64,000 bases of DNA from Bacteroidales bacterium (GTDB lineage Bacteria; Bacteroidota; Bacteroidia; Bacteroidales; UBA932), in contig JAFYUS010000064.1 of NCBI GenBank assembly GCA_017549505.1, forward strand, positions 32,472-96,471, in the 5' to 3' direction. Position 1 is the stretch's first letter. Each line of letters opens with the position of its first letter. Made by a program: the position numbers and the translations under genes. The notes beneath the pieces were generated by a model. That model was not told the origin of the DNA, searched no databases, and saw only the letters and a program-made list of their open reading frames with translations. Below, one piece after another: positions 13,036 through 55,213 of the stretch.

Positions 13036-13138
13036 ATTAAAAACGACTGACTGTTATATAAGTGACATGCCACCCCCGGCTAGGGGGACCCCTCGAAGAG
13101 GGAGGGGGTCACTGGTATAACAGTCAGTCGTTTTTAAT
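13036..13138. repeat. Nested palindromic element, copy A
   Basis: Perfect 23-bp inverted arms (13036-13058 and 13116-13138) enclose a GC-rich core. The core is bounded by AGTGAC/GTCACT and contains two hairpins: CCCCC-GGCTA-GGGGG (13073-13087) and CCCTC-GAA-GAGGG (13090-13102). The arms carry an A tract on the left and a T tract on the right, so the folded transcript could act as a terminator in both directions between the convergent epimerase and DUF5009 genes. Related cores are at 16.0, 28.5, 38.1 and 55.1 kb. Confidence 0.9.
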
Positions 13139-13154
13139 GCGGACCTTTAAGCTG

Positions 13155-14537
13155 CTAGCTTCTCCAGAAGAGTTTCCTGCGGGTGAAGAAGCAGGTAACG
13201 GCGACCATCAGAAGGGTGAAGACCAGGCCTCTTATAACGCCCCAGAAAGGCGAGCCGACGCTTATTGCGTCAAGCCAGGCGGTGATTCCGCACAGTGTCA
13301 GGACCGGACCTGTGAAGAAGCTGGTGACGGTATATGCAAGCATAGGGTTCTGACCGCATCCGCTCAGACCACGTCCCTTTATCTGCCATTTGAGTTCCAA
13401 TGCGAGGACGAAGGCTCCGGTAAGGGCTGTCATGCCTGTGGTAGTGAGCATGTACGACAGGTTGCAATAGTCTTTTGTGATACCTCCGTCGATAGGGTCG
13501 AAGAGGATGCCGACAAGCATGAATCCAAAACCGAAGTAGCCGAGCCATGTCATGATGTTGCGTCTCTTCCATGTAAGTACGACAAATACAGCACAAAGTA
13601 CAGCGGAAATTACAAGGTCAGCTACAAGATGTCTTGTAAAGAGTCCCCAGAGCTGAACAAGCATAGCAACGAGGGCAATGACTCCTGCTGCAATATGGTG
13701 GCTGTCTATCTGAACGGTCTCTCCGGATCTTGAGTGTTCGAGAAGCTTGTCGCCGACTATTGAGCCGGCAAGGGCGATGACAAGGTACTGGAGATATCCC
13801 CACGAGAAGAACCATCCGATGCTGCCCATGGCAGGTACCCATGAAAGAACTTCCGGAGTGTACGAGCTCAAAGCCTTGAGCGCAATGATGAACAGAAGCA
13901 CAAGCCAGCGCAGACGGATGCTGTCTTTAGTGAACATCCAGAGAAGACCTCCGAAGATCGCAACGTTTGCAAGGATCATGATGATCACGTCGCTGCTCCA
14001 TCTGCTGAGTGTCAGTCCCATGTAATCCGTTCCGACAAAAGCCATCACGACAAGCAGGAACATGCCTGCGTTATTGATCAGACGGCATTTCTTCTCGTCC
14101 TTCAGCCTTACAAGAGACATGAACATTACACCCCACAGGACAATCTGGAACAGACCCTTGACAAAGTAAGGACGAGGGCTGGCGCCGATAGAATAGGCGT
14201 TGCCGAGCACGATGGCAAAGATGGTCAGGGTAAGCCATCTGCGGAACAGACTTCCTGCGACTTCCCATCTGCTGACCCCGTTCTCCAACCTCTTGCGCAT
14301 GGCAAGAGGAAATGCAGCTCCCATAGTGAAGAGGAAGAAAGGGAAGACGAGGTCCACCCATGTGATTCCAGCAACGTCAGGGTTGAATGCATAGGTCGGA
14401 GGGGGAGTCTGACCATGGAACATCCATGCAGGCAGGTCCGAGTTATAACCGATATTCGCGCATAGGATCATCGCGAATATCGTTATGCCACGCAGGATGT
14501 CGATGGTTATTATTCTTTTGTTGGATAGTGAAGCCAT
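13155..14537 (-). CDS. DUF5009 multi-pass membrane protein (HGSNAT-like acyltransferase homologue)
   Basis: 460 residues with about ten to eleven hydrophobic helices. The N-terminal pattern RIITIDILRGITIFAMIL, the extracytoplasmic segment ending GITWVDLVFPFFLFTMGAAF, and the length fit the DUF5009 family. That family is related to eukaryotic heparan-alpha-glucosaminide N-acetyltransferase, which moves acetyl groups across a membrane onto terminal glucosamine. In PULs such proteins often sit beside sialic acid or amino-sugar genes; here the neighbour is an AGE-type epimerase. The ATG shares one base with the stop of the upstream phosphoesterase gene (TAATG, 14535-14539), so the two are translationally coupled. 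Acetyltransferase activity is inferred from homology only. Confidence 0.8.
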   Translation of the reverse strand: MASLSNKRIITIDILRGITIFAMILCANIGYNSDLPAWMFHGQTPPPTYAFNPDVAGITWVDLVFPFFLFTMGAAFPLAMRKRLENGVSRWEVAGSLFRRWLTLTIFAIVLGNAYSIGASPRPYFVKGLFQIVLWGVMFMSLVRLKDEKKCRLINNAGMFLLVVMAFVGTDYMGLTLSRWSSDVIIMILANVAIFGGLLWMFTKDSIRLRWLVLLFIIALKALSSYTPEVLSWVPAMGSIGWFFSWGYLQYLVIALAGSIVGDKLLEHSRSGETVQIDSHHIAAGVIALVAMLVQLWGLFTRHLVADLVISAVLCAVFVVLTWKRRNIMTWLGYFGFGFMLVGILFDPIDGGITKDYCNLSYMLTTTGMTALTGAFVLALELKWQIKGRGLSGCGQNPMLAYTVTSFFTGPVLTLCGITAWLDAISVGSPFWGVIRGLVFTLLMVAVTCFFTRRKLFWRS

Positions 14538-15952
14538 TATCTTTCGATTGCCTTTGTGTATACTCTGCCGAAACGGTCTGTCACACGTACCTCAAGCTTC
14601 TTTGCGTCCTCGGACTTCTTTGCCCTGAACATGTTTTCTGTTCTTGCAGCATATACCCAGTTTCTCTTGAGTTTTGACTGGTCCTTGTAAAGTTCTCTTG
14701 CAAGAGGATCCTTGTCCATGAATCTCTCCATGTCGCAGACCTTGACTCCGTCCTCGAAGTACTCGACTTTCCATGTAGGGTCATAGTCCCAAACGTTCGC
14801 TACGACCTCACCAGGGAATGTAGGGTCGTCGACATATACCTTCATCTGATAGTCCAGAGGATGCCCGCATCCCTTGTAGATCCATGTGCTCTTCTCTCCG
14901 TCCATGTCGAAATGCTTGAAGCCTGCAGGAGAACCGTCGATGCATACTTCGCCGCACCACCATGCGCCGCAGAGGCCTGCAACGTTGATTTCTGTGATGT
15001 TTGGTGCGATCTGCTCGTAGTCTGCAGTGTGCATGTGACCTGAAAGAATCAGAGTCTCATATGGCTTGAGCATATCGTAGAGGGCTGTCTTGTTGCAGAG
15101 GTTGTCAACGATCACATCATATGAGAATGTGTCGCGGTCAGACTTGTCCAATGTGGTAGGGATGTGCATCGATACAACAACCTTTGATCCCTTCGGTACA
15201 TAAGAAAGGTCTTTCTCAAGCCATGCGAGCTGTCGCTCGTCAAGATATCCTATGTAATACCAGTCACGGCCGAGGAAGAAGTTGTCGTTGAGGACGATGT
15301 AATGTACCTTTCCTACGTTGAACGAATACCAGCAAGGACCGAACATGTCTTCATAGTTGGTCATCGAAGTCTCATACGAGCGGCCGTAGTTGGTCATGTC
15401 GTGGTTTCCGATGACATACCTGTAATCGATACCGGTCTTGTCCATCACCTTGTTATATTCAGGATAGATGCTGTGGTCCCATCCTACGATGTCTCCAAGG
15501 CAGAGTCCGAATGTATATTCTCCGTCAATTTCCTCGACATATGCAGCGATATCCTCGGCATGGTTGGCGAGTTCAGGAAGTTCATCCCTGTCGCTGATCT
15601 GTGGGTCTGCGATTACGATGACGTTGTGGTTGGTGTCATCCTTGGCATTCTTTTCCACGACGAAATCGTAGCTCTTGACCTTTTTCTTTATCTCCTTATA
15701 GAAAAGGTTCTTGCCCTTGAGGGTAGATGATATGTAACCTGATGGAGTCGAAATGAACACAAATCTGCTGTCATCATCCGCATCCATCTCAAATCTTCCC
15801 TTCTCATCTGTCTGGACTGTATTCAGTCCGTCCGATACCACGACTCCGGCAACCGCCTTGCCTTCCGAGTCCTTCACAGTACCCTTGACCCTCTCCGCTT
15901 TCACTCCTACAGCTGCTCCTACAGCCAAAATAAATAATAATATCTTCTTCAT
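14537..15952 (-). CDS. Calcineurin-like metallophosphoesterase with N-terminal Ig-like domain, exported
   Basis: 471 residues with a signal peptide (MKKILLFILAVGAAVGVKA). Residues about 20-105 form a carboxypeptidase-regulatory-like/MetallophosN beta-sandwich (GTVKDSEGKAVAGVVVSDG). The catalytic domain has the full metallophosphoesterase motif series: VIADPQ, LGDIVGWD, VIGNHDMT, VVVSMHIP and LSGHMHTADY, with glutamine in place of the first motif's histidine. A C-terminal beta domain follows. It probably removes phosphate from phosphomonoester or phosphodiester substrates in the periplasm. That would fit the phosphodiester glycosidase on the other strand of the same locus. Second to last gene of the minus-strand operon. 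Confidence 0.88.
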   Translation of the reverse strand: MKKILLFILAVGAAVGVKAERVKGTVKDSEGKAVAGVVVSDGLNTVQTDEKGRFEMDADDDSRFVFISTPSGYISSTLKGKNLFYKEIKKKVKSYDFVVEKNAKDDTNHNVIVIADPQISDRDELPELANHAEDIAAYVEEIDGEYTFGLCLGDIVGWDHSIYPEYNKVMDKTGIDYRYVIGNHDMTNYGRSYETSMTNYEDMFGPCWYSFNVGKVHYIVLNDNFFLGRDWYYIGYLDERQLAWLEKDLSYVPKGSKVVVSMHIPTTLDKSDRDTFSYDVIVDNLCNKTALYDMLKPYETLILSGHMHTADYEQIAPNITEINVAGLCGAWWCGEVCIDGSPAGFKHFDMDGEKSTWIYKGCGHPLDYQMKVYVDDPTFPGEVVANVWDYDPTWKVEYFEDGVKVCDMERFMDKDPLARELYKDQSKLKRNWVYAARTENMFRAKKSEDAKKLEVRVTDRFGRVYTKAIER

Positions 15953-15966
15953 AATTAATCATTATT

Positions 15967-16067
15967 TACCGGCAGGTGGGTTGGAAAACCGTGGCCGCCC
16001 ATGGCCCCGTGAATGGGAGGGGCCCACGAAGTGGGAGGGATTTAGTTTTCCAACCCACCTGCCGGTA
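15967..16067. repeat. Nested palindromic element, copy B
   Basis: Perfect 23-bp inverted arms (15967-15989 and 16045-16067, left arm beginning TACCGGCAGGTGGG) enclose a diverged core. The second core hairpin is CCCAC-GAA-GTGGG (16023-16035), as in copy E; the first is a variant with CCCAT/ATGGG (15998-16017). The element lies between two co-directional minus-strand genes, 6 bases past the end of the CE2-like gene, so it could attenuate read-through into the phosphoesterase gene. Confidence 0.88.
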
Positions 16068-16073
16068 TATTAT

Positions 16074-17186
16074 TTATTTATAAGGTTTCTCCTCCATGTC
16101 CCAGCCGGTAAGCGTAGATATGTATGGTATCACGCTGCTGGCCACCTTGATATGACCCTTGTAGTTAGGATGCCAGCTTGCTCCAAGCTCGTCAGTCTCA
16201 TTGTGGATTCCCTTGGTAAGGCCGACATATGTGAGATTGCTCAAGCCGCTCATCATACATGCATTACGGATGTAGTCGAAGCTGAAAGGAGTCACGTTTG
16301 ATGCAAGGCAGAGGATCGGCATGTCTGCGCCGTAGTTTGCCTTGACCTTCTTGAGAAGTTCGATGTACCTTCCGGCAAATATTGTTTCATGCGGCTGGCG
16401 CGCAGTGGAGAAGTCGTTTGTGCACAGGTAGATGACTACAAGGTCAGGACGATATGGTGCATCTGAAGCGTTCCAGATGACCTCTTTCGACTCGTCGAAA
16501 GTCTGGCTGTATCTGTCAGGCATGTTGTAACCCTGGCCGTAGTCGTCGTAGTTGCGGCAGATGCCCTGACCTGAGTGGCTTACAAGGTTGAAGTCCGCTC
16601 CGAAATATCTTGATGCTATCGCCGCGTAGGTGAGGTTACAGTTCTCGGTTTCGGCGAGGAACGGATCGTCCCTGTCCTGGCTTTCTGTACCGTATCCGCA
16701 AGTGTATGAGTCACCGATGAACTCGATGTGCCTTTCCTTGCGTCCGTCAGCCTGCAGGATCTCGCCTTCGGTCAGGAATGAATGTACTGTGAAACGACCC
16801 TGCTCGCCCTCGGTCCTCTTCTGGAGGATGACCTCGTGCTCACCTTTGCCGAGTCCTTCAGCGAGAACGATTACGGTATCCTTGGCTCCCACCATGAATA
16901 CTTTGTCGGCTTTCGGGCTCATCTCCTTGTCTGTCCACTGGTTGAACCAGCAGTTCTTTGTGTCGGAGCATTTCATGGCAAGGTAAGGGCCGTTGAACTT
17001 CACTCTGAAGTAGACTCCGCTCCAGTCGTATGAAACTTCTGCGCCGTTCACCTGGGTTCTTCCTGTGAACTCGATACGGCTGTCAGATGCCGGAGTCTCG
17101 ATGATTTCCTTTGCTTTCTTAGCTGAAAGGTCAGCTGTAAGTGACAATGCAAGGACTGTCAGCAGTACGGTTATCGTCTTGTGCAT
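16074..17186 (-). CDS. SGNH-hydrolase carbohydrate esterase, CE2-like, exported
   Basis: 370 residues with a signal peptide (MHKTITVLLTVLALSLTADLSA). The N-terminal ~120 residues form a jelly-roll typical of CE2 esterases (SYDWSGVYFRVKFNGPYLAM). The SGNH domain follows: block I IEFIGDSYTCGYG with the nucleophilic serine, SGQG, CTND with the asparagine region, and the C-terminal SWHPNYKGH histidine. No aspartate sits three residues before that histidine, and some CE2 enzymes are known to use a Ser-His dyad. CE2 enzymes deacetylate sugars or polysaccharides. A -7 element (TATCTTTG, read on the minus strand from 17224 to 17217) may give it a secondary promoter behind the GH2 gene. Confidence 0.8.
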   Translation of the reverse strand: MHKTITVLLTVLALSLTADLSAKKAKEIIETPASDSRIEFTGRTQVNGAEVSYDWSGVYFRVKFNGPYLAMKCSDTKNCWFNQWTDKEMSPKADKVFMVGAKDTVIVLAEGLGKGEHEVILQKRTEGEQGRFTVHSFLTEGEILQADGRKERHIEFIGDSYTCGYGTESQDRDDPFLAETENCNLTYAAIASRYFGADFNLVSHSGQGICRNYDDYGQGYNMPDRYSQTFDESKEVIWNASDAPYRPDLVVIYLCTNDFSTARQPHETIFAGRYIELLKKVKANYGADMPILCLASNVTPFSFDYIRNACMMSGLSNLTYVGLTKGIHNETDELGASWHPNYKGHIKVASSVIPYISTLTGWDMEEKPYK

Positions 17187-17244
17187 ATCGTTTTGAATAT
17201 TTTATTTAAGATTTTACAAAGATAGCTATATTTATTAAAATTAT

Positions 17245-19638
17245 TTAATAATTGCGAAGAATTACCTGGGCTAAACCGTTAAAAGTAACGATCTTCATTG
17301 AATCCTCGCCTTCAACAGGCCTTTCTACGTGCTGGAAGGCAGGGTCTCCGTTGCCCCATCCGAGGATGCTCATGCCCTCAGGTGCTGTGAATACCATTTC
17401 TTCGCACGCAGTAGGTACAAACCTTCCTTTGTCATCTACCATCCGCACATTGGCGACTGTGATGTCTCCGACAGTCTCGTATGTCCATACGGCGTCGACC
17501 GCTTTTCCTGCGGTCTCGATCTTTGTCTCCATGACCTTCTTTCCTGAACGGTAACCGATTGCCTTTATATATCCCGGCTTGTATGTGGCCTCCCATTCAA
17601 GGTGTCCGTTTACCGGCATCTTCTTGCGTGCGAGCTTCTTGCCGTTGACCACGAGCTGCACTTCGTCGCAGTTGCTGTAGACCCATACCGATACCTTTTC
17701 ACCTTCATGACCGTCAAGATTCCAGTGCGGGAGAATGTGCAGTACAGGCTCATCTGTCCACCATGACTTAAGATAGAAGGCTTCATCCTTAGGGAATCCG
17801 CAGTAGTCGAGGATACCGAATTCCGAGCTTGTAGCAGGGAATACCATAGGGTTCGGCTCACCTCTGTAATCAAATCCGGTCCAATAGAAGACACCTGCAA
17901 GATATGGTCTTTCTGCGTAGAACTTCCATCCTCTTTCGATGCAGTTGTACACGCTGTCCGGTCCATGCTTATAGCGGTTCAGGGATACCATCCTTCCGTC
18001 TCCTGCTTCCACAGCGTTGCGTCCGCGGCCCACAGGCGTCTCGAAGTAGACGCCGCGTGTGCCGCAGCCTGTCGTCTCTTCCGAGCCGAGGGCACAACGC
18101 TCAGGGTAGTCGGCACGGTGTTTCTCGACCGGGTTCTGAAGTATGTAGTTGTATCCTGCGACGTCAGCAGGCTCTATGATTGTCGGGCCGCTGCTTGATG
18201 CGACCGTCATCAGACGGGTCGGATCGAAGCGGTGGCAGTACTCACGCATCGATTCTGCGATGCGTCGTCCGAGGTCTTTCCATTCGATACCCCATTCTTC
18301 GTTTCCTGCGCTCCAGAGGATTATGCAAGGGTGATTCCTGTCGCGTCTTATCATCCTCTCCAGCAGGTCGATATGTTCCTTATTGATTCCTGTAAGTCTG
18401 TTCTCCTCTATGACTAGGAAGCCGAGCCGGTCACATGCGTCGAGCATCTCAGGGGTCATCGGGTTGTGGCTTGAACGGTAGGCGTTGCAGCCGAATTTCT
18501 TCAGCTGGAGAAGTCTCCATTCCTGGAGACCGTCAGGTATTCCGCTGCCGACTCCTGCATGATCCTGGTGGATGTTGACTCCTTTCAGCTTGACAGGCTC
18601 GCCGTTGAGGAAGAATCCGTGGTCATTGTCAAATCTGATGTGTCTTATACCGGTTGTGGTCTCGTATGTGTCAGTAAGCGCGCCATCGACAAAGACTTCC
18701 GTAACTACCTTATACAGATATGGGTCCTCGCAGCTCCAGAGATGAGGGTTTTCAACCGGAATCGATGCCTTGCTCTTGTGGCTGTCCTTGCCGGCAACCA
18801 TCGCTCCGTCTGCTTCGCAGCTTCCTGCCGCCTTACCTTCAGCATCGATAAGGGTATGCTTCAAGGTGTAGGTCTGAGGCTGCACTCCCATATTCTGTAC
18901 GGTGGTCTCTATCTGCACCGATGCATGGCTGAAGTCCTCTCCGGCGTTGCCTCTGAGGCTGTATGGCACCGCGAACTCAGAGTATACGAATGTGCCGAAA
19001 GGAGCTACATGTACCTTTGATGCCTTGTTGAACCACACATGTCTGTATATACCTGCTCCTTCATAGAACCATCCTTCTTCGAAGGTGGCATCTGCCCGTA
19101 CGCAGACCAGGTTCTCTTCCCCATAGTTGAGGTACTCCGAGATGTCATATGTCTGTGTCGCATATCCGCTCTTCTCGTGGCCGAGGTAGAAGCCGTTGAC
19201 CCAGATCTGAGCGTCGCGGAATATGCCGTCGAACTGCAGCCATATGTGCTTTCCATAATCTTCGGCAGGTACTGTGAAGACCTTTCTGTACCAGCCCACG
19301 CTGGTCTGGGGATATTCATATCCTACCTGTTTGTAACCGTGACTGTGACTGGCTTCTTCGGCAAACGGAAGGTCCACCACCCAGTCGTGAGGAAGATCGA
19401 CAGTCTTCCATGCCGAGGCGTCGAACTTCATCACATACGGTCCTTCGTTATGGATGGACGCAGCCTTGGTGAAGTAGTTGAAATATTCGGTTCCGCATCC
19501 GAAGTCCTTGGCAGGATCGGATGCATCTCCGAATGCGAACTGCCAGTTAGAATCGAAATTCTGTCGCTCGCGCATGTCCTGCCCCTGCAGGGCAGTCGCT
19601 GCGAGACTTAATAATAGGATAAACAGGTACTTTTTCAT
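17245..19638 (-). CDS. GH2 family beta-glycosidase (beta-galactosidase type), exported
   Basis: 797 residues with a signal peptide (LLSLAATALQGQ). Domain order fits GH2: N-terminal sugar-binding domain (WKTVDLPHDWVVD, GWYRKVFTVP, IWVNGFYLGHEKSGY), immunoglobulin-like domain, TIM barrel, and a C-terminal DUF4982-like region. In the barrel, SAGNEEWGIE holds the acid/base (Glu447) and LGSEETTG the likely nucleophile (Glu520); WTGFDYRGEP follows. Beta-galactosidase is the commonest activity for this subgroup, but beta-glucuronidase or beta-mannosidase cannot be excluded. It is the first gene of the minus-strand operon and diverges from the hybrid two-component regulator. Confidence 0.9.
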   Translation of the reverse strand: MKKYLFILLLSLAATALQGQDMRERQNFDSNWQFAFGDASDPAKDFGCGTEYFNYFTKAASIHNEGPYVMKFDASAWKTVDLPHDWVVDLPFAEEASHSHGYKQVGYEYPQTSVGWYRKVFTVPAEDYGKHIWLQFDGIFRDAQIWVNGFYLGHEKSGYATQTYDISEYLNYGEENLVCVRADATFEEGWFYEGAGIYRHVWFNKASKVHVAPFGTFVYSEFAVPYSLRGNAGEDFSHASVQIETTVQNMGVQPQTYTLKHTLIDAEGKAAGSCEADGAMVAGKDSHKSKASIPVENPHLWSCEDPYLYKVVTEVFVDGALTDTYETTTGIRHIRFDNDHGFFLNGEPVKLKGVNIHQDHAGVGSGIPDGLQEWRLLQLKKFGCNAYRSSHNPMTPEMLDACDRLGFLVIEENRLTGINKEHIDLLERMIRRDRNHPCIILWSAGNEEWGIEWKDLGRRIAESMREYCHRFDPTRLMTVASSSGPTIIEPADVAGYNYILQNPVEKHRADYPERCALGSEETTGCGTRGVYFETPVGRGRNAVEAGDGRMVSLNRYKHGPDSVYNCIERGWKFYAERPYLAGVFYWTGFDYRGEPNPMVFPATSSEFGILDYCGFPKDEAFYLKSWWTDEPVLHILPHWNLDGHEGEKVSVWVYSNCDEVQLVVNGKKLARKKMPVNGHLEWEATYKPGYIKAIGYRSGKKVMETKIETAGKAVDAVWTYETVGDITVANVRMVDDKGRFVPTACEEMVFTAPEGMSILGWGNGDPAFQHVERPVEGEDSMKIVTFNGLAQVILRNY

Positions 19639-25688: not shown

Positions 25689-28007
25689 ATGAAACTGAAC
25701 AGATTTATTCTTGGAGCGTGTGCAGCATTCGTTGCCGCTTCGTGCTGCAGTTCACCTGAGGTGGAGCCAGCTATCCCTTATGATGCCGCTCTTGAGGCAA
25801 AGGTAGAGAAGGTTCTCAAGGGAATGACCCTTGAAGAAAAGATCGGCCAGATGACTCAGATTTCCGTTGATGCCATCTCAAGAGGCGGTGAACTGACCCC
25901 TGCAGGTGATTCGATCATCCGTACCTACAAGGTGGGTTCGATCCTCAATGTACCTGATGGTCATGCACAGACTCCTGAACTGTACAACAAGCTTGTAGGC
26001 GAAATCAACCGTATCTCGATCGAGGAAATGGGTATCCCTACTCTCTACGGTCTCGACCACATCCACGGAACATCGTATGTTCTCGGCGGAGTACTTTTCC
26101 CTCAGGAAATCAACCTCGCTGCGTCTTTCAACCGTCAGCATGCGTACAACATGGGTATGGTTACTGCATACGAAAGCCGTGCAGCTGACGTGCCTTGGAC
26201 TTTCTCTCCTACAATGGACCTTGGAAGAAACCCTTCATGGTCAAGAATGTGGGAAAGCTTCGGCGAAGATGTATATGTGAATGCTGAAATGGCTGTGGCA
26301 GAGGTCCGTGGTATGCAGGGTGACGATCCTAACAACGTAGGCCCATACCATATTGCAGCATGTGCAAAGCATTTCATGGGTTATGGCGTACCTGTTTCAG
26401 GACAGGACCGTACACCTTCGTCAATCGCGGCTTCAGAACTTCGAGAGAAGCATTTCGAACCTTTCAAGGAGGCTATGCAGGCAGGTGCCCTCTCTATCAT
26501 GGTCAATTCCGGCAGCAATAACGGCATGCCTTTCCACTGCAATACCGAGCTCCTTACCCAGTGGGTGAAGGAAGAACTCAATTGGGACGGTATGATCGTC
26601 ACAGACTGGGCTGATATCGTGAACCTTTATACACGCGAGCGTGTCGCTTCTACTCTTAAGGAAGCTGTGAAGATCTCTATCAATGCAGGTATCGACATGT
26701 CGATGGTTCCATACAACTGTCAGTTCGCCATCGACCTTAAGGAACTTGTCGAGGAAGGTGAGGTTCCTATGTCACGTATCGACGACGCAGCGCGTCGCGT
26801 ACTCCGTCTGAAATTCCGTCTCGGTCTCTTCGACCAGCCTGATACAAAGGAGGCTGACTATCCTGATTTCGGAAGCGAGAAGCATGTCCGTATGGCATAT
26901 GAGGCTGCTGTAGAATCACAGGTTCTCCTCAAGAACAACGGCATCCTTCCTTTGAAGAAGGATCTCCGCATTCTCCTTACAGGTCCTAATGCAAACTCGA
27001 TCAGAACCCTTAATGGTGGATGGTCATATACATGGCAGGGTAACGCCGCTTCATGGCCACACTTTACTGACAAGTACAACACCATCTATGAAGCTCTTGC
27101 ACAGAAATTCCCGAATCTCAAATATGTTCCTGGCGTAGAGTATGACCTCATGGGAACAAACTGGACTTTCGATGAGCAGACAAGCGTGAAGGAAGCAGTG
27201 AAAGCTGCACGTCAGTCTGATGTGATCATCGCATGTATCGGTGAAAATACATATTGTGAGACTCCTGGTAACGATGTGGATATGAACCTTTCTGCAAATC
27301 AGAAGGAGCTCGTGAAGGCTCTTGCTGCAACAGGTCGTCCTATCATCCTCATCCTCAACGAGGGCCGTCCACGTATCATCAATGACATCGAGCCTCTTGC
27401 AACAGCTGTCGTTGATGTACTTCTTCCTGGTAACTATGGTGGTGATGCTCTTGCAGCTCTTATCAGCGGTGAGGAGAACTTCAGCGGTAAGCTTCCTTTC
27501 ACATATCCTAAGTACATCAGCAAGCATACTACATACGACTACAAGCCGGCCGAGCAGCAGGGAACAATGTCAGGTGCATACAACTACAGTGCTGATGTAG
27601 ACAGCCAGTGGCCTTTCGGACACGGACTCAGCTACACTGCATACAAGTATTCGAACATGACAGTATCTGCTACCGAGTTCGGAGTTGATGACGTTCTCAA
27701 GGTAACAGTTGACGTAACCAACGTAGGTGCAAGAGAGGGTAAGGAGAGCGTGCTTCTCTTCTCATCTGACCTCTACGCAAGCCAGACTCCAGACGTGCGT
27801 CGTCTCCGTGCTTTCGATAAGGTAAGCATCGAGCCTGGTCAGACAGTGACTGTAGAGTTTGAGGTAGCTGCCAAGGATCTTGCCTTTGCAGACTACTATG
27901 GCAAGTGGAGACTCGAGGAAGGTGACTTCATCCTTTCGGTAGGTGATCTCAGCCAGAAGGTGACATGTACAGAGACAGTTCTCTTCGATCAGCCGAACAT
28001 TGACTAG
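25689..28007 (+). CDS. GH3 family beta-glycosidase lipoprotein
   Basis: 772 residues with a lipoprotein signal (Cys19 in AASCC). Domains follow the GH3 layout: (beta/alpha)8 barrel ([48 protein letters not shown], and IVTDWADI with nucleophile Asp306), alpha/beta sandwich ([28 protein letters not shown]), then a fibronectin-like C-terminal domain ([20 protein letters not shown]). The best match in form is beta-glucosidase, but beta-xylosidase or N-acetylglucosaminidase activity is possible within GH3. It has its own promoter and runs directly into dut, which starts 1 base after its stop. Confidence 0.92.
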
Positions 28008-28008
28008 C

Positions 28009-28440
28009 ATGAAAGTACAGATAGTAAATAAATCAGCCTGGGCCACTCCGGCATATGCGACTGAAAAGTCTGCCGGAATGGACCTGAAGGCAAATATCGA
28101 TGAACCGATAACTCTCGGTCCGCTCGAAAGAGCGATGGTCCCTACGGGACTTTACATCGCTCTTCCGGATGGCACCGAGGCCCAGGTGAGACCGAGAAGC
28201 GGTCTCGCTGCAAAGCACGGAATATCCGTCCTTAATTCTCCGGGTACCATTGACGCCGACTATCGTGGAGAGGTGAAGGTTATCCTCGTGAATCTTTCCA
28301 ACGAGCCGTTCGTCATCAATCCCGGCGAGAGGATAGCCCAGATGGTTGTCGCACGTTATGAAAAGATAGAATGGGACGAGGTTGAAGTTCTCGATGAAAC
28401 AGAACGTGGAACAGGTGGATTCGGAAGCACAGGACGATAA
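28009..28440 (+). CDS. dut: dUTP diphosphatase (dUTPase)
   Basis: 143 residues, the usual length of trimeric dUTPase. All five conserved motifs are present in order: [33 protein letters not shown] and [10 protein letters not shown]. The enzyme converts dUTP to dUMP and diphosphate, keeping uracil out of DNA and supplying dTMP synthesis. ATG 28009 is chosen; it lies 1 base after the GH3 stop, so dut appears to be the distal gene of the GH3 transcript, although an internal promoter cannot be excluded. Its stop codon (28438-28440) lies inside the left arm of nested palindromic element C. Confidence 0.96.
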
Positions 28441-28535
28441 ATCATCGAAACATTTCATGGACCCCCGCCTGCCTTTGGCAGGCACCCCCCTAGCCGGGGG
28501 TGGCATGTCCATTACATGTTCCGATAATTTATCGT
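28434..28535. repeat. Nested palindromic element, copy C (inverted orientation)
   Basis: Imperfect 29-bp inverted arms (28434-28462 and 28507-28535, 25 of 29 positions complementary) enclose a core that reads in the opposite orientation to copies A and D. It contains GCCTGCC-TTT-GGCAGGC (28467-28483) and CCCCC-TAGCC-GGGGG (28486-28500). The left arm includes the last codons and stop of dut; the right arm ends about 50 bases before murF. Confidence 0.9.
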
Positions 28536-28583
28536 CACGACCTACAATGAATCACAATGTTTCATGAGAAATTAGGTGGTATA

Positions 28584-31452: not shown

Positions 31453-31575
31453 GGTACAAATATAGTGAATCTACAGATATAAATATGAATCCTATGCCCC
31501 GAAGTCTTGCCTGGTCCTGATATTACTTTCCAGATTTTATATGTTGTGCGCTTCAACTAGTTGATAACCAATCTC

Positions 31576-31621
31576 TTAGTCGATATGCCTGCTGCACTTT
31601 GACTGCAGGCATATCGACTAA
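31576..31621. repeat. Perfect 17-bp inverted repeat (hairpin)
   Basis: TTAGTCGATATGCCTGC at 31576-31592 pairs perfectly with 31605-31621 around a 12-base loop. Flanking AACCA/TGGTT could extend the stem past a bulge. There is no T tract, so it is not an obvious terminator. The sequence after it (TGGTTGATTATAAG) resembles the spacer that follows the ~85-bp repeats. Confidence 0.88.
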
Positions 31622-31701
31622 ATGGTTGATTATAAGTGTCTTATGTCGCACTGGTCTGTCGAGACTGGATATGCAATTTTAAAGATTTCTCAGCCCTAAC
31701 A

Positions 31702-32035: not shown

Positions 32036-32353
32036 CTTTTGAACACTTCCGTGACATAGAAACGTCAAATCATGTCACGGGGTGACTATACAGTTTGTGC
32101 ATTTTTCACCGCAGCACCTAGTTAAAGCAAGTTAAATAACGTGTTGCAAGGCACCACCGCTGGCAAATACGCCAGCCAGCGGTTCTCAGCAAGCTGCGCA
32201 GCTCAGCCCAAGGGCTGCTCCGCCTGCTGAGTGCCACGACTACAAAATCATATAGGAAGTAAAACCGTCCAACAAAAGGGGCGCACATCATATTTGAACT
32301 CTTTTGGACACTTCCGTGACATAGAAACGTCAAATCGTGTCACGAGGTGACTA
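32036..32353. repeat. 53-base direct repeats flanking a folded block
   Basis: A 53-base sequence at 32036-32088 recurs at 32301-32353 with about three differences. Each holds the hairpin CCGTGACA / TGTCACGG (or TGTCACGA), for example 32049-32056 with 32073-32080. A diverged third relative (TTCCGTGACA ... TGTTACGGAG) is at 31974-32009. The two copies bracket 212 bases, including the GC-rich folded block at 32150-32235. Confidence 0.88.
32150..32235. other. GC-rich multi-hairpin block, candidate structured RNA or mobile-element remnant
   Basis: A closing stem GGCAC (32150-32154) / GTGCC (32231-32235) encloses four nested or adjacent pairings: CCGCTGGC (32157-32164) with GCCAGCGG (32175-32182); TCAGCA (32186-32191) with TGCTGA (32225-32230); the 12-base palindrome AGCTGCGCAGCT (32192-32203); and CAGCCC-AA-GGGCTG (32204-32217). 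Almost every base is in a helix. No known RNA family was recognised, and the strand cannot be assigned. Confidence 0.6.
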
Positions 32354-32463: not shown

Positions 32464-32535
32464 TAGTCGGTAGGGGAATCGAACCCCTATTGCAAGATTG
32501 AGAATCTTGAGTACTAACCGTTATACGAACCGACC
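32464..32535 (-). tRNA. tRNA-Glu, anticodon CTC
   Basis: The minus strand folds into a standard cloverleaf: acceptor GGTCGGT / ACCGACT (a G-U pair at the end), D-arm GTAT...GTAC with AACGGTTA loop, anticodon stem CAAGA / TCTTG with loop TTCTCAA giving anticodon CTC, and T-arm AGGGG-TTCGATT-CCCCT. The segment TTCGTATAACGG resembles glutamate tRNAs elsewhere. CCA is not encoded. It has its own strong promoter and terminator, so it is a single-gene transcript decoding GAG, a codon used heavily by the genes here. Confidence 0.95.
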
Positions 32536-37306: not shown

Positions 37307-39091
37307 TTACGCTTCGGAGGCGAGGGGAGTGCTGAAGGTGAGAGTTTTGCCGGTGATGGGGTGAAGGAAGGTTATGCTGTGGGCATGGAGGTGGAGACGG
37401 GTGCATGCCGGGTTTCCGGAACATTCCGATGTTTCGGTCCATACGGTGCCGCTGCCACCATATAGAAGGTCGCCCAGAATCGGGCGGCCGAGACCGCTGA
37501 GGTGTGCAGAGTGGACGCGGAGCTGGTGGGTGCGGCCGGTGTGAGGGTAAAACAGGATGTCTATAGTGCCGTCTTCATTGACTGCTGTGACTTCATATTC
37601 TGTCAGCGAGTTCTTTCCTTGAGCCGGATCAACCTTCTGTCGAGGACGTTCGTCGTAGTCCGGGCTTAAAGGCTGCTCGATAATCCCTTTGTTTCCGGCT
37701 TTCAGCAAAGGTACATCTCCAGCGAACCTGTGGGTATCGGCAGGAGAGAGTCTTGCCATGTAGGTCTTCCTTACGGAATGCTCTTCGAACTGTTTCTTAA
37801 GACAAATCTCGGCATGGGAATTCTTTGCGAATACGATTATCCCCGATGTGTCCATGTCAAGACGGTGGACAGAAATGACTGGAATCTGCAATTCCTTCTG
37901 CAGCCATTCCTGCAGCGACTCCCTTCCGTCAAGCCCCGGTACCGACGGCATTCCCGACGGCTTGCAAGCCACCACAATCTCCTCATCTTCATATATTACA
38001 GCTGCATTAAGCGAAATGTTACATATGTTGCCTGATGTTGCAGACGTTTCAGGATATGGAAATGTGGAAAGGACATGCCACCCTCGGCTAGGGGGTGCCT
38101 GCGAAGCAGGCGGGGGTCCTTGGAACATTCCATATCCTGAAACGTCCATCCCCTGCATCATGTATGACAGGAGCGGACCGCATTTAGAAGTACAGGAAGG
38201 ATAGAAATGTCCATGTGTACGTACGGCTGTCGCAGGCGACTTGCCGTACCAGAATTCTCCCATGGCAAGCGGCCGAAGTCCGTTTGCATATGCGTAGTTC
38301 AGCAGTTTTGGAGCGGCGCAGTCGCCGGTTCCTCCCGGCGGCATTAACCCCTGCTTCTGAAATATATCAAGGATGCTGGCCTTTTCGCCGGCAGCATTAT
38401 GTACAATGTACTGTTCAAAGATCCATCTCTGAAGTTTGTCGGACTTGCCGGCACGAAGTCTCTTCAAGGACTTTATTCTGTCGCGGACTTCCGATAATTG
38501 TGTTTCCAGTTCTGAAATAGTATTCTTCCAGCGGTCCTTTGCCCTCTTGATCTCTCCGTTTGCAAACTGGCTTTCTGCAATGCTGGAGCATTCCTTCTTT
38601 TTTGTCTTCAGAAGGAAAATTTCGGCTTCCATATTTATTCGGGCTTCCTTCAGCCTGAGTTCAAGAGGCTCATTTTCAAGGAGTTCTGTCTCCTCAATCT
38701 CTTTATTGACTGCTGTGATTTCAGCTTCATGGACGCGGTAGTAACCGCCGTCTTCCATAAGATCGAAGACCGGAGGTACGAATCCTTCGATATGGCTTTG
38801 CCCTCCGACGTTGCCGGAGAAGGCGGCTAGGGTGGAGATTCCCACGTCGCTTCGCTCCTCGGAATGACGTTCTGTTCTTCGCTCCTCGGAATGACGTTCT
38901 GTGCTTCGTTCCCCAGAATGACATACCAGCACCCCCAGCATCTTGCCATCAGTAAATCCTTTCGCCACTTCCTCCGGCAGGAGACCGGAAGTGATCATGC
39001 CGTCCAGCCTTTCCATAACCTCTCTGGCCGCTTTCCTCACAAGAGGATGCGGGCTGTATCTGAAAGGGTTTGTAAAGGGGATATCAATCAT
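37307..39091 (-). CDS. RluA-family pseudouridine synthase with N-terminal extension and two in-frame repeat insertions
   Basis: 594 residues. The C-terminal ~220 residues are the RluA catalytic domain: EIVVACKPSGMPSVPG, HRLDMDTSGIIVFAKN with the catalytic aspartate, YEVTAVNEDGTIDILFYPHTGRTHQLRVHSAH and PILGDLLYGG. It isomerises uridine in rRNA or tRNA; the target is unknown. The N-terminal half is the extension seen in Bacteroidota homologues (VLVC...LAAFSGNVGG, FVPPVFDL, a coiled coil, then LLNYAYANGLRPLAMGEFWYG). Two stretches look inserted: residues around HSEERSDVGI (38835-38923), and the translation of nested palindromic element D (38043-38146) in the hinge before the catalytic domain. 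The frame stays open through both. It overlaps nth by four bases. Confidence 0.9.
   Translation of the reverse strand: MIDIPFTNPFRYSPHPLVRKAAREVMERLDGMITSGLLPEEVAKGFTDGKMLGVLVCHSGERSTERHSEERRTERHSEERSDVGISTLAAFSGNVGGQSHIEGFVPPVFDLMEDGGYYRVHEAEITAVNKEIEETELLENEPLELRLKEARINMEAEIFLLKTKKKECSSIAESQFANGEIKRAKDRWKNTISELETQLSEVRDRIKSLKRLRAGKSDKLQRWIFEQYIVHNAAGEKASILDIFQKQGLMPPGGTGDCAAPKLLNYAYANGLRPLAMGEFWYGKSPATAVRTHGHFYPSCTSKCGPLLSYMMQGMDVSGYGMFQGPPPASQAPPSRGWHVLSTFPYPETSATSGNICNISLNAAVIYEDEEIVVACKPSGMPSVPGLDGRESLQEWLQKELQIPVISVHRLDMDTSGIIVFAKNSHAEICLKKQFEEHSVRKTYMARLSPADTHRFAGDVPLLKAGNKGIIEQPLSPDYDERPRQKVDPAQGKNSLTEYEVTAVNEDGTIDILFYPHTGRTHQLRVHSAHLSGLGRPILGDLLYGGSGTVWTETSECSGNPACTRLHLHAHSITFLHPITGKTLTFSTPLASEA
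38043..38146. repeat. Nested palindromic element, copy D (in frame within rluA-type gene)
   Basis: Perfect 19-bp inverted arms (38043-38061 and 38128-38146, starting GACGTTTCAGG) continue as imperfect pairing to GGAC/GTCC. The core holds CCCTC-GGCTA-GGGGG (38081-38095) and GCCTGC-GAA-GCAGGC (38097-38111). On the minus strand it is translated without a stop (including GMDVSGYGMF and PPPASQAPPS), in the linker between the N-terminal and catalytic domains. Confidence 0.92.
38835..38923. repeat. 27-bp tandem repeat inside rluA-type gene (HSEERSDVGI type)
   Basis: Three units of about 27 bases, each ending CTTCGCTCCTCGGAATGAC or a variant (ends at 38869, 38896 and 38923), encode RHSEER-type repeats on the minus strand. 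A single related copy is intergenic at 39748-39771. The unit length keeps the reading frame. Confidence 0.88.
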
Positions 39092-47423: not shown

Positions 47424-47428
47424 CATCT

Positions 47429-49520: not shown

Positions 49521-49578
49521 CCGGCTCTTTCGGAATACCGGAACCATTTGTAAGAAAAATGATTAAAAGATAAAAGAT

Positions 49579-50886: not shown

Positions 50887-50894
50887 CTTACAAG

Positions 50895-50919
50895 GCCGGC
50901 TCGTGTAGCCGGCTTTTTT
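50895..50919 (+). terminator. Rho-independent terminator between tig and clpP
   Basis: GCCGGCT (50895-50901) pairs with AGCCGGC (50907-50913) around a 5-base loop and is followed by TTTTTT. It ends 14 bases before clpP, so clpP either has a promoter inside or just before the hairpin or relies on read-through. Confidence 0.92.
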
Positions 50920-50933
50920 ATTGATATACCATT

Positions 50934-51605
50934 ATGAATAAGGAATTCGAAAAATACGCACGTCTGGAACACCGTATCAGTTCCATGACCATGCACAGGT
51001 ATGAGTCGGTCCTCGACGGATACATCAACCCTACCATCCTTGAGGAGAGAAAGCTCAATGTGGCATCGATGGATGTATTCAGCCGTCTTATGATGGACAG
51101 GATCATCTTCCTTGGCGTTCCTATCGATGACGACGTTGCAAACATCATCCAGGCACAGCTTCTTTTCCTTGCGTCTAATGACAGCACAAGCGATATCTCG
51201 CTTTATCTTAATACTCCGGGCGGTGTAGTATCGTCTGGCCTTGGAATCTATGACACGATGCAGCTCATCGAACCTGATGTAGCTACAATATGTACAGGTA
51301 TGGCAGCTTCAATGGGCTCTGTACTTCTTTGTGCAGGTGCAAAGGGAAAGAGATCCGCTCTTCCACATTCAAGGGTGATGATTCATCAGCCACTTGGAGG
51401 TGCGCGCGGTCAGGCTTCTGATATACTTATCGCTGCACAGGAGATAGAAAAGACAAAGAAGGAACTTTACGAAATAATCTCGGAGCATTCAGGTCAGCCT
51501 ATCGAAAGGATTTATGCTGACGGAGACCGTGACTTCTGGATGACATCCCAGGAGGCTCTGGAGTATGGTATGATCGACGAGATACTCAGAAAGAAGAACA
51601 GGTAG
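50934..51605 (+). CDS. clpP: ATP-dependent Clp protease proteolytic subunit
   Basis: 223 residues. The Ser-His-Asp triad is Ser126 (GMAASMGSVLL), His151 (RVMIHQPLGG) and Asp200 (DRDFWMT), with the same 25- and 49-residue spacings as E. coli ClpP. The N-terminal ~30 residues are longer than in proteobacterial ClpP, as in other Bacteroidota, and may be cleaved. It forms the barrel protease that degrades substrates unfolded by ClpX, encoded three bases downstream. Confidence 0.97.
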   Translation: MNKEFEKYARLEHRISSMTMHRYESVLDGYINPTILEERKLNVASMDVFSRLMMDRIIFLGVPIDDDVANIIQAQLLFLASNDSTSDISLYLNTPGGVVSSGLGIYDTMQLIEPDVATICTGMAASMGSVLLCAGAKGKRSALPHSRVMIHQPLGGARGQASDILIAAQEIEKTKKELYEIISEHSGQPIERIYADGDRDFWMTSQEALEYGMIDEILRKKNR

Positions 51606-51608
51606 CAT

Positions 51609-52826
51609 ATGGCCAAGGATAGAAAACAGTCTGGAGGATACTGCATGTTCTGTGGCAGGAGCGAGAAGGAAGTTTCGCTTCTGCTGCAGGGACTTGATGC
51701 CTGCATATGTGCGGATTGTGTCAGGATGGCCCAGGATTATATCCGCGATTTTGACAGGTCGTCAAAGACTTCTTCCGTGCCGGAAAAGGTTGAGAGCGAT
51801 TACAAGCCGAAGGATATCCACGAATATCTCGACCAGTATGTCATCGGCCAGGACAGAGCCAAGAAACTGCTCTCTGTCGCTGTATATAACCATTACAAGA
51901 GACTCAATAACAACCTGTCAAAGGATAATGAACTCGAACTCGAGAAGTCTAACGTGCTGATGGTGGGCCCTACCGGTACAGGTAAGACATTGCTTGCCAA
52001 GACAATAGCAAAGCTTCTCAATGTTCCGTTCACAATCGTAGATGCTACAGTGCTTACAGAAGCCGGTTATGTTGGTGAGGATGTGGAGAGTATCCTGTCA
52101 CGTCTGCTCCAGGAAGCCGATTATGATGTAGCCAAGGCAGAGAGAGGTATCGTGTTCATCGATGAGATCGACAAGATCGCGCGTAAGAGTGATAACCCTT
52201 CGATAACCCGCGATGTGTCAGGAGAAGGAGTCCAGCAGGCAATGCTTAAACTTCTTGAAGGAAGCGTCGTGAATGTTCCGCCTCAGGGAGGCCGCAAGCA
52301 CCCCGAGCAGGAATTCCTCCATGTGAACACCCAGAATATCCTGTTCATATGCGGAGGTGCATTCGAAGGAATAGAGCGCAGGATTGCACAGCGTCTCAAT
52401 ACTCAGGTGATCGGATTCGGTTCGTCTAACAAGCCACAGATCGACAAGAACAATCTTCTGAAGTATGTCGAGGCTCAGGACCTGAGGGCATACGGTCTCA
52501 TACCGGAGATCATCGGACGTCTTCCTGTGATAACATACCTTGACCACCTTGACAGAGATTCACTGAAGAGGATCCTCACGGAACCGAAGAATGCTCTGCT
52601 GCGTCAGTATGAGAAGATGTTCGAACTGGATGGCATCAAGCTTACGATAGATCCTGAGGTGCTCGACCTCATAGTGGACACCGCCATCGAGAACAAGCTC
52701 GGTGCCAGAGGCTTACGTTCTATCTGTGAGCAGATTATGACAGATGCCATGTATGATGCTCCTTCTTCCGGCAAGAAAACATTCCGCGTGACGTTGAATT
52801 ATGCGAAGAAAATGTTGCTCAATTAA
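51609..52826 (+). CDS. clpX: ATP-dependent Clp protease ATPase subunit ClpX
   Basis: 405 residues. The N-terminal zinc-binding domain is complete ([11 protein letters not shown], then CICADC). The AAA+ core has Walker [16 protein letters not shown], Walker [14 protein letters not shown], and the pore loop [22 protein letters not shown] and the C-terminal [12 protein letters not shown] region complete the family. It unfolds tagged proteins and feeds them to ClpP. The gene starts 3 bases after clpP. Confidence 0.97.
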
Positions 52827-52885
52827 AAAAAATGTCCTACACTTGCACCGGAAAAAGTACAATAGAATTAAAGAGAGTTAATAAT

Positions 52886-53227
52886 ATGTCAGTAACAACT
52901 AAGAAGAGAGGAGTTGTCAGCTACGAGAACATGTCAGAAGAGCTGGCGGCAGCATTTGCAGAGAAGTATCCAAAAGGATACAGTGACTATTTTGGCGACC
53001 TTGTAAAATACGACAAGCCGGACGGAACCTCGTTTTACGCTGTAATGGTTGAGATTCCGGATGCCATCTACCTTGTGAAGATAAAGGTCAAGACTGATGA
53101 CCTTGAGGATATCGAGCGTTGGCTTGACGGCGAGGATAATGATGATGCTGACTCAAACGAGGGAGAAAGCCTTCCAGATGACAACATCTCGCAGTATTCG
53201 ACAGAAGACGATGGTGCAGACGCGTAA
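52886..53227 (+). CDS. Small conserved acidic protein of unknown function
   Basis: 113 residues from ATG 52886 (MSVTTKKRGVVSYENMSEEL); an upstream ATG at 52832 would add 18 residues that look non-conserved. The first ~80 residues look like a compact fold (AEKYPKGYSDYFGDLVKYDK, SFYAVMVEIPDAIYLVKIKV). The tail is strongly acidic (DGEDNDDADSNEGESLPDDN) and probably disordered. I recall similar proteins in other Bacteroidota but no assigned function. It follows clpX and ends before a strong terminator. Confidence 0.8.
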   Translation: MSVTTKKRGVVSYENMSEELAAAFAEKYPKGYSDYFGDLVKYDKPDGTSFYAVMVEIPDAIYLVKIKVKTDDLEDIERWLDGEDNDDADSNEGESLPDDNISQYSTEDDGADA

Positions 53228-53243
53228 GCGCTCAAAAACATAT

Positions 53244-53280
53244 AAAAGCCGACCTGAAAACATCAAGGTCGGCTTTTTTT
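53244..53280 (+). terminator. Rho-independent terminator after the clpX operon
   Basis: GCCGACCT (53248-53255) pairs with AGGTCGGC (53266-53273) and is followed by seven T; an A tract precedes the stem. A -7 box TATATTTG at 53284-53291 lies directly after it and would start the CLC transcript near 53296. Confidence 0.93.
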
Positions 53281-53307
53281 GTTTATATTTGTAAACTTTT
53301 GTGACCT

Positions 53308-55095
53308 ATGGGAAAGAAGTTCAAATTCAAGGATATATCATCTCCGTTCAGACGCTTCATCGCGAGCATGCCTGAACGGGACGTGATGATAGTACTTTCC
53401 CTTTTTGTCGGTGTAGCCTGTGGTCTTGCTGCAGTCTTTCTGAAATCCGCCATCGAATTCATCCATCATTCCATAACATCGTGGTTCGACGGCGTCGCAT
53501 ATAGTGCATTATACCTCATCTATCCGGGTATCGGTATGTTACTGGCTATGCTCTTTGTGCGATATGTGGTCAAGGATAACATAGGTCATGGAGTTACAAA
53601 GGTCCTTCAGGCCGTTTCAAAGAACGAGTCAAAGATCAAGCCTCATAACATGTGGTCGTCGATGCTGGCATCATCCGTGACCATCGGATTCGGAGGATCC
53701 GTGGGAGCCGAGGCTCCTATCGTATATACCGGAGCTGCTATAGGATCGAACGTCGCCAGATTCATGGGATTGTCCTATAAGAACATGACCATCCTGCTTG
53801 GATGCGGCGCTGCTGGTGCAGTCGCCGGCATCTTCAAGGCCCCTCTGGCCGGTGTCCTGTTCACATTGGAGATTCTTCTTTTCAACATCTCCATGACATC
53901 CATCCTCCCGCTCCTTCTTTCGACAATTTCAGCAACTGTGATCTCATACATCTTCTTCGGAGACCAGCCGGCCTTCGAATGTACGATATCCGAGTTCACG
54001 ATGCATAACATACCGTTCTATCTGATCCTCGGCCTTTTCAGTGCGGCATGTTCAGTATATTTCACAAGGACGACATTGTGGCTTGAAGACAAGATAAGAT
54101 CCATCAAGGGACCATACATCAGATGGGCCATATCTGCTTTCGGACTTGGACTTCTGATCTTCCTTTTCCCTCCTTTGTACGGTGAAGGATATGAGCATCT
54201 TCATACCCTCCTGAACGGAGGCATGATAGATCTGGAAGGGGAGACGATTCTTGCATTCTTCATGCACAGTGAATGGTCCATTCCGATATTCTTCCTTCTG
54301 ATCCTTATCCTGAAAGTCTTCTCCATGTCATTCACCAATGCCGGTGGAGGAGTGGGAGGTACTTTCGGACCTACTCTGTTCATCGGTGCCATTGCCGGAT
54401 TCTTCGTGTCGAGGACAATAAACCTTATCGGAGGCGGTGCTGTGGTTCCCGAACAGAACTTCGTTCTTGTCGGAATGGCCGGACTGATGTCCGGCGTGAT
54501 GCAGGCGCCTCTGACCGCAATCTTCCTTATTGCGGATATGACAGGAGGATACGAACTGCTTATTCCGCTTATTCTGACATCTACTGTTTCATATGCGGCT
54601 ACCAGAACCATAGAGCCGTATTCGATCTATACAAAGCGAATCGCCAAGAAGGGAGAGCTTCTTACCCACGACAGTGACCAGGCTGTGCTGACCCTTCTCA
54701 AGACCAGTGACCTGATCGAGTCGGATTTCATCCCTGTGAAGATAGATGCTTCGCTCGGACAGCTTGTGGAAGTCGTTGCGACATCCAAGAGAAACATCTT
54801 CCCGGTTATCGATGACCGGAATCATTTCCATGGCTATGTGTCGCTTGAGGATATCCGTCAGGATATGTTCCATCCGGAAAAGTATGAGAAGATGCATGTG
54901 TATAATTTCATGCTTTCTGCTCCTGCCTATGTGTATATAGACGAGAAGATGGACAGTGTGATGAACAAGTTCGAGAAGACGCAGGCGTGGAATCTGCCGG
55001 TTGTGGATCATGACAGGACGTATATCGGCTTTGTTTCCAAGTCTAAGATTTTTTCGGCTTATCGTGATCAGTTGAAACAGGTGTCGCATGACTGA
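53308..55095 (+). CDS. CLC-family chloride channel/transporter with C-terminal CBS pair
   Basis: 595 residues. About ten to eleven membrane helices carry CLC motifs: GSVGAEAPIVYTGAAIG (with the gating glutamate in GAEAP, where ClC-ec1 has GREGP), GIFKAPLAGVLFTLE, and GVGGTFGPTLFIGAIAG. The C-terminal ~140 residues are two CBS domains (FIPVKIDASLGQLVEVV, then FMLSAPAYVYIDEKMDSVMNKF). In LFTLEIL the residue after the glutamate is isoleucine; the corresponding internal proton glutamate of ClC-ec1 (E203) is missing, as in CLC channels. Anion specificity cannot be read with certainty. The copy E element follows the stop. Confidence 0.9.
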   Translation: MGKKFKFKDISSPFRRFIASMPERDVMIVLSLFVGVACGLAAVFLKSAIEFIHHSITSWFDGVAYSALYLIYPGIGMLLAMLFVRYVVKDNIGHGVTKVLQAVSKNESKIKPHNMWSSMLASSVTIGFGGSVGAEAPIVYTGAAIGSNVARFMGLSYKNMTILLGCGAAGAVAGIFKAPLAGVLFTLEILLFNISMTSILPLLLSTISATVISYIFFGDQPAFECTISEFTMHNIPFYLILGLFSAACSVYFTRTTLWLEDKIRSIKGPYIRWAISAFGLGLLIFLFPPLYGEGYEHLHTLLNGGMIDLEGETILAFFMHSEWSIPIFFLLILILKVFSMSFTNAGGGVGGTFGPTLFIGAIAGFFVSRTINLIGGGAVVPEQNFVLVGMAGLMSGVMQAPLTAIFLIADMTGGYELLIPLILTSTVSYAATRTIEPYSIYTKRIAKKGELLTHDSDQAVLTLLKTSDLIESDFIPVKIDASLGQLVEVVATSKRNIFPVIDDRNHFHGYVSLEDIRQDMFHPEKYEKMHVYNFMLSAPAYVYIDEKMDSVMNKFEKTQAWNLPVVDHDRTYIGFVSKSKIFSAYRDQLKQVSHD

Positions 55096-55113
55096 TTCTA
55101 TTGGTATAGGGCA

Positions 55114-55213
55114 ATAGATTGACAAAGTATTCCATTGGCCCCCTCCCACTTCGTGGGCCCCTCCCCCTACGCGGGGGTGCGAAAATGCCAATTCCATACA
55201 AATGTCAATCTAT
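55114..55213. repeat. Nested palindromic element, copy E
   Basis: Outer arms ATAGATTGACA (55114-55124) and its complement (55203-55213) pair perfectly, with a further TTGGC/GCCAA inside. The core holds CCCAC-TTC-GTGGG (55145-55157), the second hairpin in reverse orientation as in copy B, and CCCCC-TACGC-GGGGG (55163-55177). It fills most of the 172-base gap between the CLC gene and tex. Confidence 0.88.

Follow-up and report, generated by a model that had tools for sequence, protein, structure and literature searches.

How can a repeat keep its centre from copy to copy while most copies have ends of their own, which nevertheless pair with one another and are of a set length? The question is raised by five palindromic elements in a 64,000-nucleotide stretch of a Bacteroidales bacterium genome (contig JAFYUS010000064.1, positions 32,472 to 96,471; hereafter the window), which we call copies 1 to 5 (Table 1). 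The window is part of one contig in an assembly of 2.13 Mb, 69 contigs and 78% completeness. A preliminary description had reported a related core within five long hairpins, and had suggested that the core inserts into the loops of existing hairpins or that its arms are copied by template switching. We find that the five copies are members of one repeat family, that the palindrome is usually gained whole at insertion, and that the arms are fairly conserved once made. On balance, we favour a non-autonomous element, similar to Rickettsia palindromic elements (RPE) and miniature inverted-repeat transposable elements (MITEs), that builds its outer arms anew when it inserts, possibly by fold-back copying.

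Copies share a core but not their outer arms

Each copy consists of a conserved, GC-rich core of ~50 nt, in which two short hairpins stand on a common stem, and two arms. All five intervals are predicted to fold into long hairpins (−36 to −68.5 kcal/mol). An inverted-repeat finder recovered four of the five (13036-13138, 15961-16073, 28433-28536 and 38043-38146), and copy 5, which has interrupted arms, was recovered by a covariance model and arm alignment instead; the related core and the five long hairpins were thus borne out. Three subtypes can be separated by eye: type I, GTGACATGCCACCCCCGGCTAGGGGG...GGGGGTCAC (copies 1, 3 and 4); type II, GGCATTTT...AGGGGCCCAC..GTGGGAGGGGGCC (copy 5); and type III, GGAAAACCGTGGCCGCCC...GGGAGGGATTTAGTTTTCC (copy 2). 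The CCCCC-(5)-GGGGG hairpin, first described as usual, is exact in copies 1, 3 and 5 (at 13073, 28486 and 55163), whereas copy 4 carries CCCTC...GGGGG and copy 2, of another subtype, lacks it. The second core stem differs among the window copies as the preliminary description had it. In 13 type I copies, standard pairs filled 92.3% of pair cells, compared with 74.8% after shuffling and 45–51% with the partners slid. An Rfam scan of the window returned a tRNA as its sole gathering-score match and no RNA family for the copies, and a loose Rfam scan of copy 3 returned sub-threshold matches only.

This genome and its relatives were searched with a model of the core, as initially proposed. Covariance model R1, which was built on type I copies and does not find copy 2, gave 25 matches in the window's own genome (G000; E-values up to 1); copy 2, L013:3728 (type III) and L009:5998 are further copies beyond these. 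Among 61 genomes, searched with filters that lose weak matches, 10 had a model match, all in one genus (10/37, own genome included, vs. 0/24 in other families). A 22-base pattern matched at least 113 stretches in genome_contigs; the 80 titles listed among these matches were all Bacteroidales, Bacteroidia or Bacteroidaceae metagenome-assembled genomes, many of those listed being derived from goats, sheep, deer, buffalo, yak or cattle. There were no exact pattern matches in viral_contigs, and viral spread of the element was rejected on this result. The copy set was reduced from 171 to 163 by dropping 8 partial or antisense model matches and then to 145 distinct copies by de-duplication; it leaves out copies in 33 further pattern-matching genome_contigs stretches.

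Left arms scored far better against their own right arms (median 28) than against the right arms of other copies (median 10; 142 copies). The own-arm score exceeded the 99.9th percentile of between-copy scores in 102/142 copies and did not in 40/142. Arm limits from individual arm alignments over-extend by chance, so length was taken from position-wise pairing instead, after removal of orthologous copies that share arms (129 to 116). Between non-orthologous type I copies, arm identity dropped to background (20–45%) from position 8–12 outward of the core edge, apart from isolated later positions raised by A or T bias (e.g. 61% at position 25 in the own genome). Within type I copies, pairing was ~70–99% over positions 9 to 24 and neared the mismatched-arm control (46–55%) at 27–29. 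In type II, conserved arm positions extended to ~17 nt and within-copy pairing was ~67–87% over positions 13–23. The length of the arms is nearly set, with pairing that stops ~27 nt from the core (28.3 nt, standard deviation 4.1; 48 of 114 copies at 26–28), and the arms of G007 copies were almost perfectly paired. The initial statement that the two arms of a copy pair with each other but bear no relation to those of other copies therefore stands for the outer part of the arm; it fails for the inner 8–12 nt (to ~17 nt in type II), which are common within a subtype, and in genomes G146 and G145, whose copies resemble each other in their arms. We read the copies as one family of small palindromic elements, mobile but non-autonomous, whose carriers so far all fall in a single genus-level group of gut Bacteroidales; the inner arm belongs to the element, the outer ~15 bp is insertion-specific yet mutually complementary, and insertion would renew the outer arm as proposed below. 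This reading as a whole we judge reasonably probable. The outer arms are also biased, to A in the left arm and to T in the right, a lean that makes a terminator-like role possible.

The palindrome usually arrives whole and largely keeps its arms

The closest empty-site comparison is between L358 (G148) and L367 (G147), whose flanks are 93–94% identical over 300 nt. The empty site reads ACTTTC-AACAGA-ACAGAC, and the filled site is longer by 95 nt, among them a second AACAGA. The site of L170 is empty in six of seven relatives (the seventh has a type III element), that of L191:4220 in four of seven (the other three hold unrelated sequence, two with short hairpins by eye) and that of L015 in four of six (the other two have different elements at the same stop codon); the L008 site is empty in the single relative compared, and the L017 site in one of two. 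For the window itself, five relatives have 72–118 nt at the copy 2 site instead of 171–226 nt, and G007 has another type III element. Six relatives lack copy 3, and G148 has a copy there with different arms. At the copy 4 site, three relatives have 105–111 fewer bases and three others differ by 57–132. Copy 5 is shared with G148 and absent in G007, G031 and G062; G025 and G089 have a type III element in its place. The copy 1 site is comparable only with that of G148, which has a plain 11-bp hairpin (L389). The empty sites have neither the core nor the two arms; therefore the palindrome usually arrives whole. Empty sites lacking both arms had been named beforehand as a result that would show an ordinary repeat family. 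They were found, yet most genomes still show no conservation of the arms from one locus to another.

Once made, the arms change little. Across 13 orthologous pairs, 353/390 arm pairs were unchanged; changes that preserved pairing were two-sided in 4 and one-sided in 13, and 20 pairs were broken. None had changed in L018/L252 (0/33) or L192/L205 (0/32), where element bins were more identical than the flanks (95–99 vs. 66–89% and 95–99 vs. 52–95%, respectively). In L011/L277, element bins were not above the flanks (87–88 vs. 80–97%; bins within 400 nt and gene side). Since orthologous copies keep similar arms, their copy-specificity probably arises around insertion.

Some copies have direct repeats, and most lie at gene ends

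After removal of orthologous copies sharing arms (123 to 113), direct repeats of at least 6 nt just outside the arms were seen in 9/113 copies, compared with 2.3% expected, and 0/300 shuffles matched this in a 14-nt window. The preferred geometry places a gap of 4–8 nt to the left of the core-forward unit and ~0 to its right; it gave 15 cells, contributed by 8 copies, vs. 3.3 expected (0/60 shuffles), and the mirror geometry gave 6 cells vs. 2.6 expected (4/60 shuffles). The repeats in excess are 6–8 nt long and occur in a minority of copies, with one clear case that has an empty site (L358/L367).

Sites were analysed for 108 copies, those with little flank being dropped. The stop of an open frame of at least 80 codons lay within 75 nt of the core in 87/108 copies and at 437/1663 random positions, a count that may be inflated by stop codons that the element itself supplies. 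Copies lay between convergent frames in 42/108 cases (1.7% expected), and where there was one gene end the core was antisense in 31/45 (p = 0.016). A further feature is that 17/108 copies lie inside open frames of at least 180 codons (21 rows, four copies being on both strands). The host genes include murB, argC, prmC, shikimate kinase (aroK) and hemW by NCBIfam, and the rluA-like host in the window by Pfam. In-frame copies in such housekeeping genes of uncultured gut bacteria would add about 35 foreign residues and offer a natural series for the study of protein tolerance.

Table 1. Members of the family in the window, the host frame of copy 4 and the direct repeat beside copy 1.
Feature	Positions	Strand	Remarks
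Copy 1, type I	13036..13138	+	23-bp perfect outer arms 13036-13058 / 13116-13138; core ~13062-13112; between convergent frames
CTTTAAG, left member of 7-nt direct repeat outside copy 1	13022..13028	.	overlaps stop codon of epimerase frame 11864-13027; may be chance
CTTTAAG, right member of 7-nt direct repeat outside copy 1	13145..13151	.	may be chance
Copy 2, type III	15967..16067	+	23-bp perfect arms 15967-15989 / 16045-16067; core 15990-16044
Copy 3, type I	28433..28536	-	3' end of dut (28000-28440, + strand); left arm begins within last dut codons
Copy 4, type I	38043..38146	+	in frame in 594-aa rluA-like gene, before pseudouridine synthase domain (residues 361-592)
rluA-like gene (by Pfam), open frame containing copy 4	37307..39091	-	
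Copy 5, type II (CGCG loop variant)	55114..55213	-	after clc-like gene 53308-55095

Variants and other repeats were also seen. In L013:2536-2660 and L187:1422-1551, from two genomes, the loop of the first core hairpin holds an extra palindrome-like insert of ~40 nt, and L009, L162, L163, L164 and L188 are long variants with a second hairpin of ~60 nt. A separate inverted repeat without the family core lies at 31564-31633 of the window (29-nt arms, 86% complementary, 12-nt loop). Near the end of murB (L007, L171, L174, L206 and L209) there is a second repeat family, of the GTCATTGCGAGGAGCG..GACGTGGCAATCT type, apparently translated in frame to give peptides like CHSEERSD; a fuzzy search found none of this type in the Y1 loci L153-L161. 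Positions 32129-32298 of the window, near a tRNA (32464-32535), have 86–94% matches in relatives and stand at the very start of three contigs in G031; this is a repeat that breaks assemblies. Finally, L082:41-2100 and L089:276-2325 (G089 and G062) are 93.5% identical over 2 kb, above the rest of these genomes, possibly a recent exchange.

How the outer arms could be remade

Insertion of the element may pass through a single-stranded or hairpin-capped intermediate, on which one arm would be the template for the other in fold-back synthesis. Such synthesis would renew the outer arm, sometimes with part of it taken from the target, and the templating of one arm by the other would guarantee their complementarity. 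Trimming and regrowth of arms would fit the 14/4665 copy pairs that have inner but not outer arms in common; none has both in common (G146/G145 rows excluded). At clc in G025 and at dut in G000, part of the arm is made up of the end of the adjacent gene, unlike at L008, where the arm lies within the inserted unit. More broadly, inverted similarity between the gene end and the far flank was above the null 95% level in 20/165 cases and above 99% in 11, compared with 3/165 in a direct control, although direct repeats or palindromic gene ends confound part of this signal. The initial suggestion of template switching thus gains from clc, dut and the excess of inverted similarity, and loses by L008 and the confounded gene ends. 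Inverted copying of gene ends as a general rule, which L170 and L017 had suggested, was weakened, as direct repeats and palindromic gene ends explain part of it. A more specific proposal, doubtful but worth stating, is that the chemistry of insertion itself produces an inverted duplication of fixed length: the core would be inherited, and the terminal arms would be rebuilt each time on one strand of the site or intermediate and copied back on themselves, giving each copy new ends that match.

A transposase of the RAYT (REP-associated tyrosine transposase, where REP is repetitive extragenic palindromic) or IS200/IS605 type had been proposed as a partner of the core. Y1 genes are present in 8/10 element-carrying genomes and in 11/27 genomes of the same genus without the element. 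In G000, 0/3 Y1 genes had a model match within ~1.5 kb on either side, and the link to Y1/RAYT was not seen. Between epimerase and DUF5009 genes in L082 (G089), a frame that looks Y1-transposase-like by eye has its own hairpins, which are unrelated to the core.

Several observations count against remaking of the arms at insertion. Fold-back copying itself was not observed, and no transposase was linked to the element in a search for Y1_Tnp (PF01797) only. A direct repeat is not visible beside most copies, and its excess varies with the search interval chosen: at three other settings, the observed count was reached by 0, 16 and 41 of 300 shuffles. Plain junction hairpins of 8–11 bp stand at 4/30 element-free sites: L093 and L094 (dut), L389 (copy 1) and L392 (the L005 site). 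Several sites hold unrelated elements of other subtypes in relatives, so site history is hard to read. The G146/G145 copies carry GC-rich arms that are similar between copies, and 19 copy pairs have outer but not inner arms in common, mostly A/T-rich tracts. The GC-rich subfamily with mutually similar arms comprises L236, L254, L258, L259, L271, L279, L291, L293, L294 and L312.

Alternative origins of the arms

The alternative that survives best, although we consider it unlikely, is that an ordinary RPE/MITE-type repeat inserts with the arms of its donor, and that the arms diverge later between loci while hairpin selection or template-switch correction keeps them paired. This would suit inner arms common within a subtype and the conserved arms of G146/G145. 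It would also account for those orthologous sites at which the arms differ but still pair (L011/L165/L175; argC in G000/G079; dut and rluA in G000/G148) and for the two-sided changes, of which the four in all come from copy 5 vs. G148 and L190/L207, with one more, T-A to C-G, in L362/L370. However, clear orthologs such as L018/L252 and L192/L205 largely keep their arms, and the changes counted above are mostly one-sided. Moreover, because sites recur, many of the copies that differ at a given site can have inserted independently, as did those at the same gene end in L346/L368 and L015/L379/L380, and independent insertion can explain many of the orthologous sites with different arms. Concerted arm evolution as the main explanation, initially suggested by L011/L165/L175, was lowered by the pair count (4 double vs. 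33 one-sided or broken).

A much less probable origin is that the core inserts into the loops of existing hairpins such as terminators, the arms being the old stem. The plain hairpins in relatives at copy 1, dut and the L005 site would be such targets, the right half of the L389 hairpin resembles the right arm of copy 1, and both the frequency of convergent frames (42/108) and the lean of the outer arms to A and T are in keeping with terminators. As a general rule, however, loop insertion was rejected: 23/30 element-free orthologous sites have no perfect stem of at least 8 bp near the junction, in three more (L226-L228) the only such stem, of 8 bp, belongs to the next gene, and intragenic copies do not lie at terminators. 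It is possible at some gene ends. L370, a core-less hairpin with the arms of L362, might seem to be a site awaiting its core, but ACCGGTGAC, which is one end of the element, is retained in its loop; L370 therefore looks more like a deletion product.

That a structured RNA or terminator motif arose and evolved in place without mobility would agree with the gene-end bias, the antisense orientation and the conserved pairing, but is hardly credible given presence and absence between close genomes, many dispersed copies with a nearly identical core, in-frame copies inside genes, and direct repeats.

Comparison with known systems

Mobile elements are usually identified from their ends, the part that is best conserved. 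If the arms are indeed remade at insertion here, there must be a route that measures ~15 bp and copies it back on itself, a step new to DNA mobility. In addition, the family offers a one-step origin for long hairpins at gene ends. It was not recognised by title in the literature searched, where coverage is thin for subscription journals, and the comparisons below draw on partial accounts of each system.

Template switching, as far as it is described in PMC8794818, makes and keeps hairpins. Like the process we propose, it can generate a perfect reverse-complement arm in a single event, and one event can also alter a stem on both sides (PMC8794818; quasipalindrome correction), but the hairpins described there have no mobile core or set arm length. 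The coding palindromes of nematomorph mitochondria are likewise locus-specific perfect inverted repeats inside genes, and differ, in the account of PMC6649704, in having no shared core. REP and REPIN sequences with their RAYT resemble the family in being palindromic, present in many copies and mostly outside genes; here, in contrast, no core lies beside the three Y1-type genes, and the partial accounts of those systems hold no match to the behaviour of the arms.

The closest kinds are MITEs and Rickettsia palindromic elements. The ends of a MITE are normally common to all copies of its family, whereas here the centre is conserved and the ends are variable, with outer arms at background identity between copies except in G146/G145. 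In other respects MITEs, summarised in PMC10969869 as short, non-coding, dispersed inverted-repeat elements with direct repeats, are similar to the short, dispersed inverted-repeat units found here, some of which have direct repeats beside them. RPE, in the parts of PMC10969869 and PMC6649704 that treat them, are palindromic repeats of ~100–150 bp that occur in many copies, both intergenic and in frame in housekeeping genes, and form families with conserved sequence whose repeat identity is lost over time. Here too there is a palindromic unit of ~100 bases in many copies, between genes and in frame. Set against published descriptions of RPE, the family stands apart in outer arms that differ between copies and yet have a set length.

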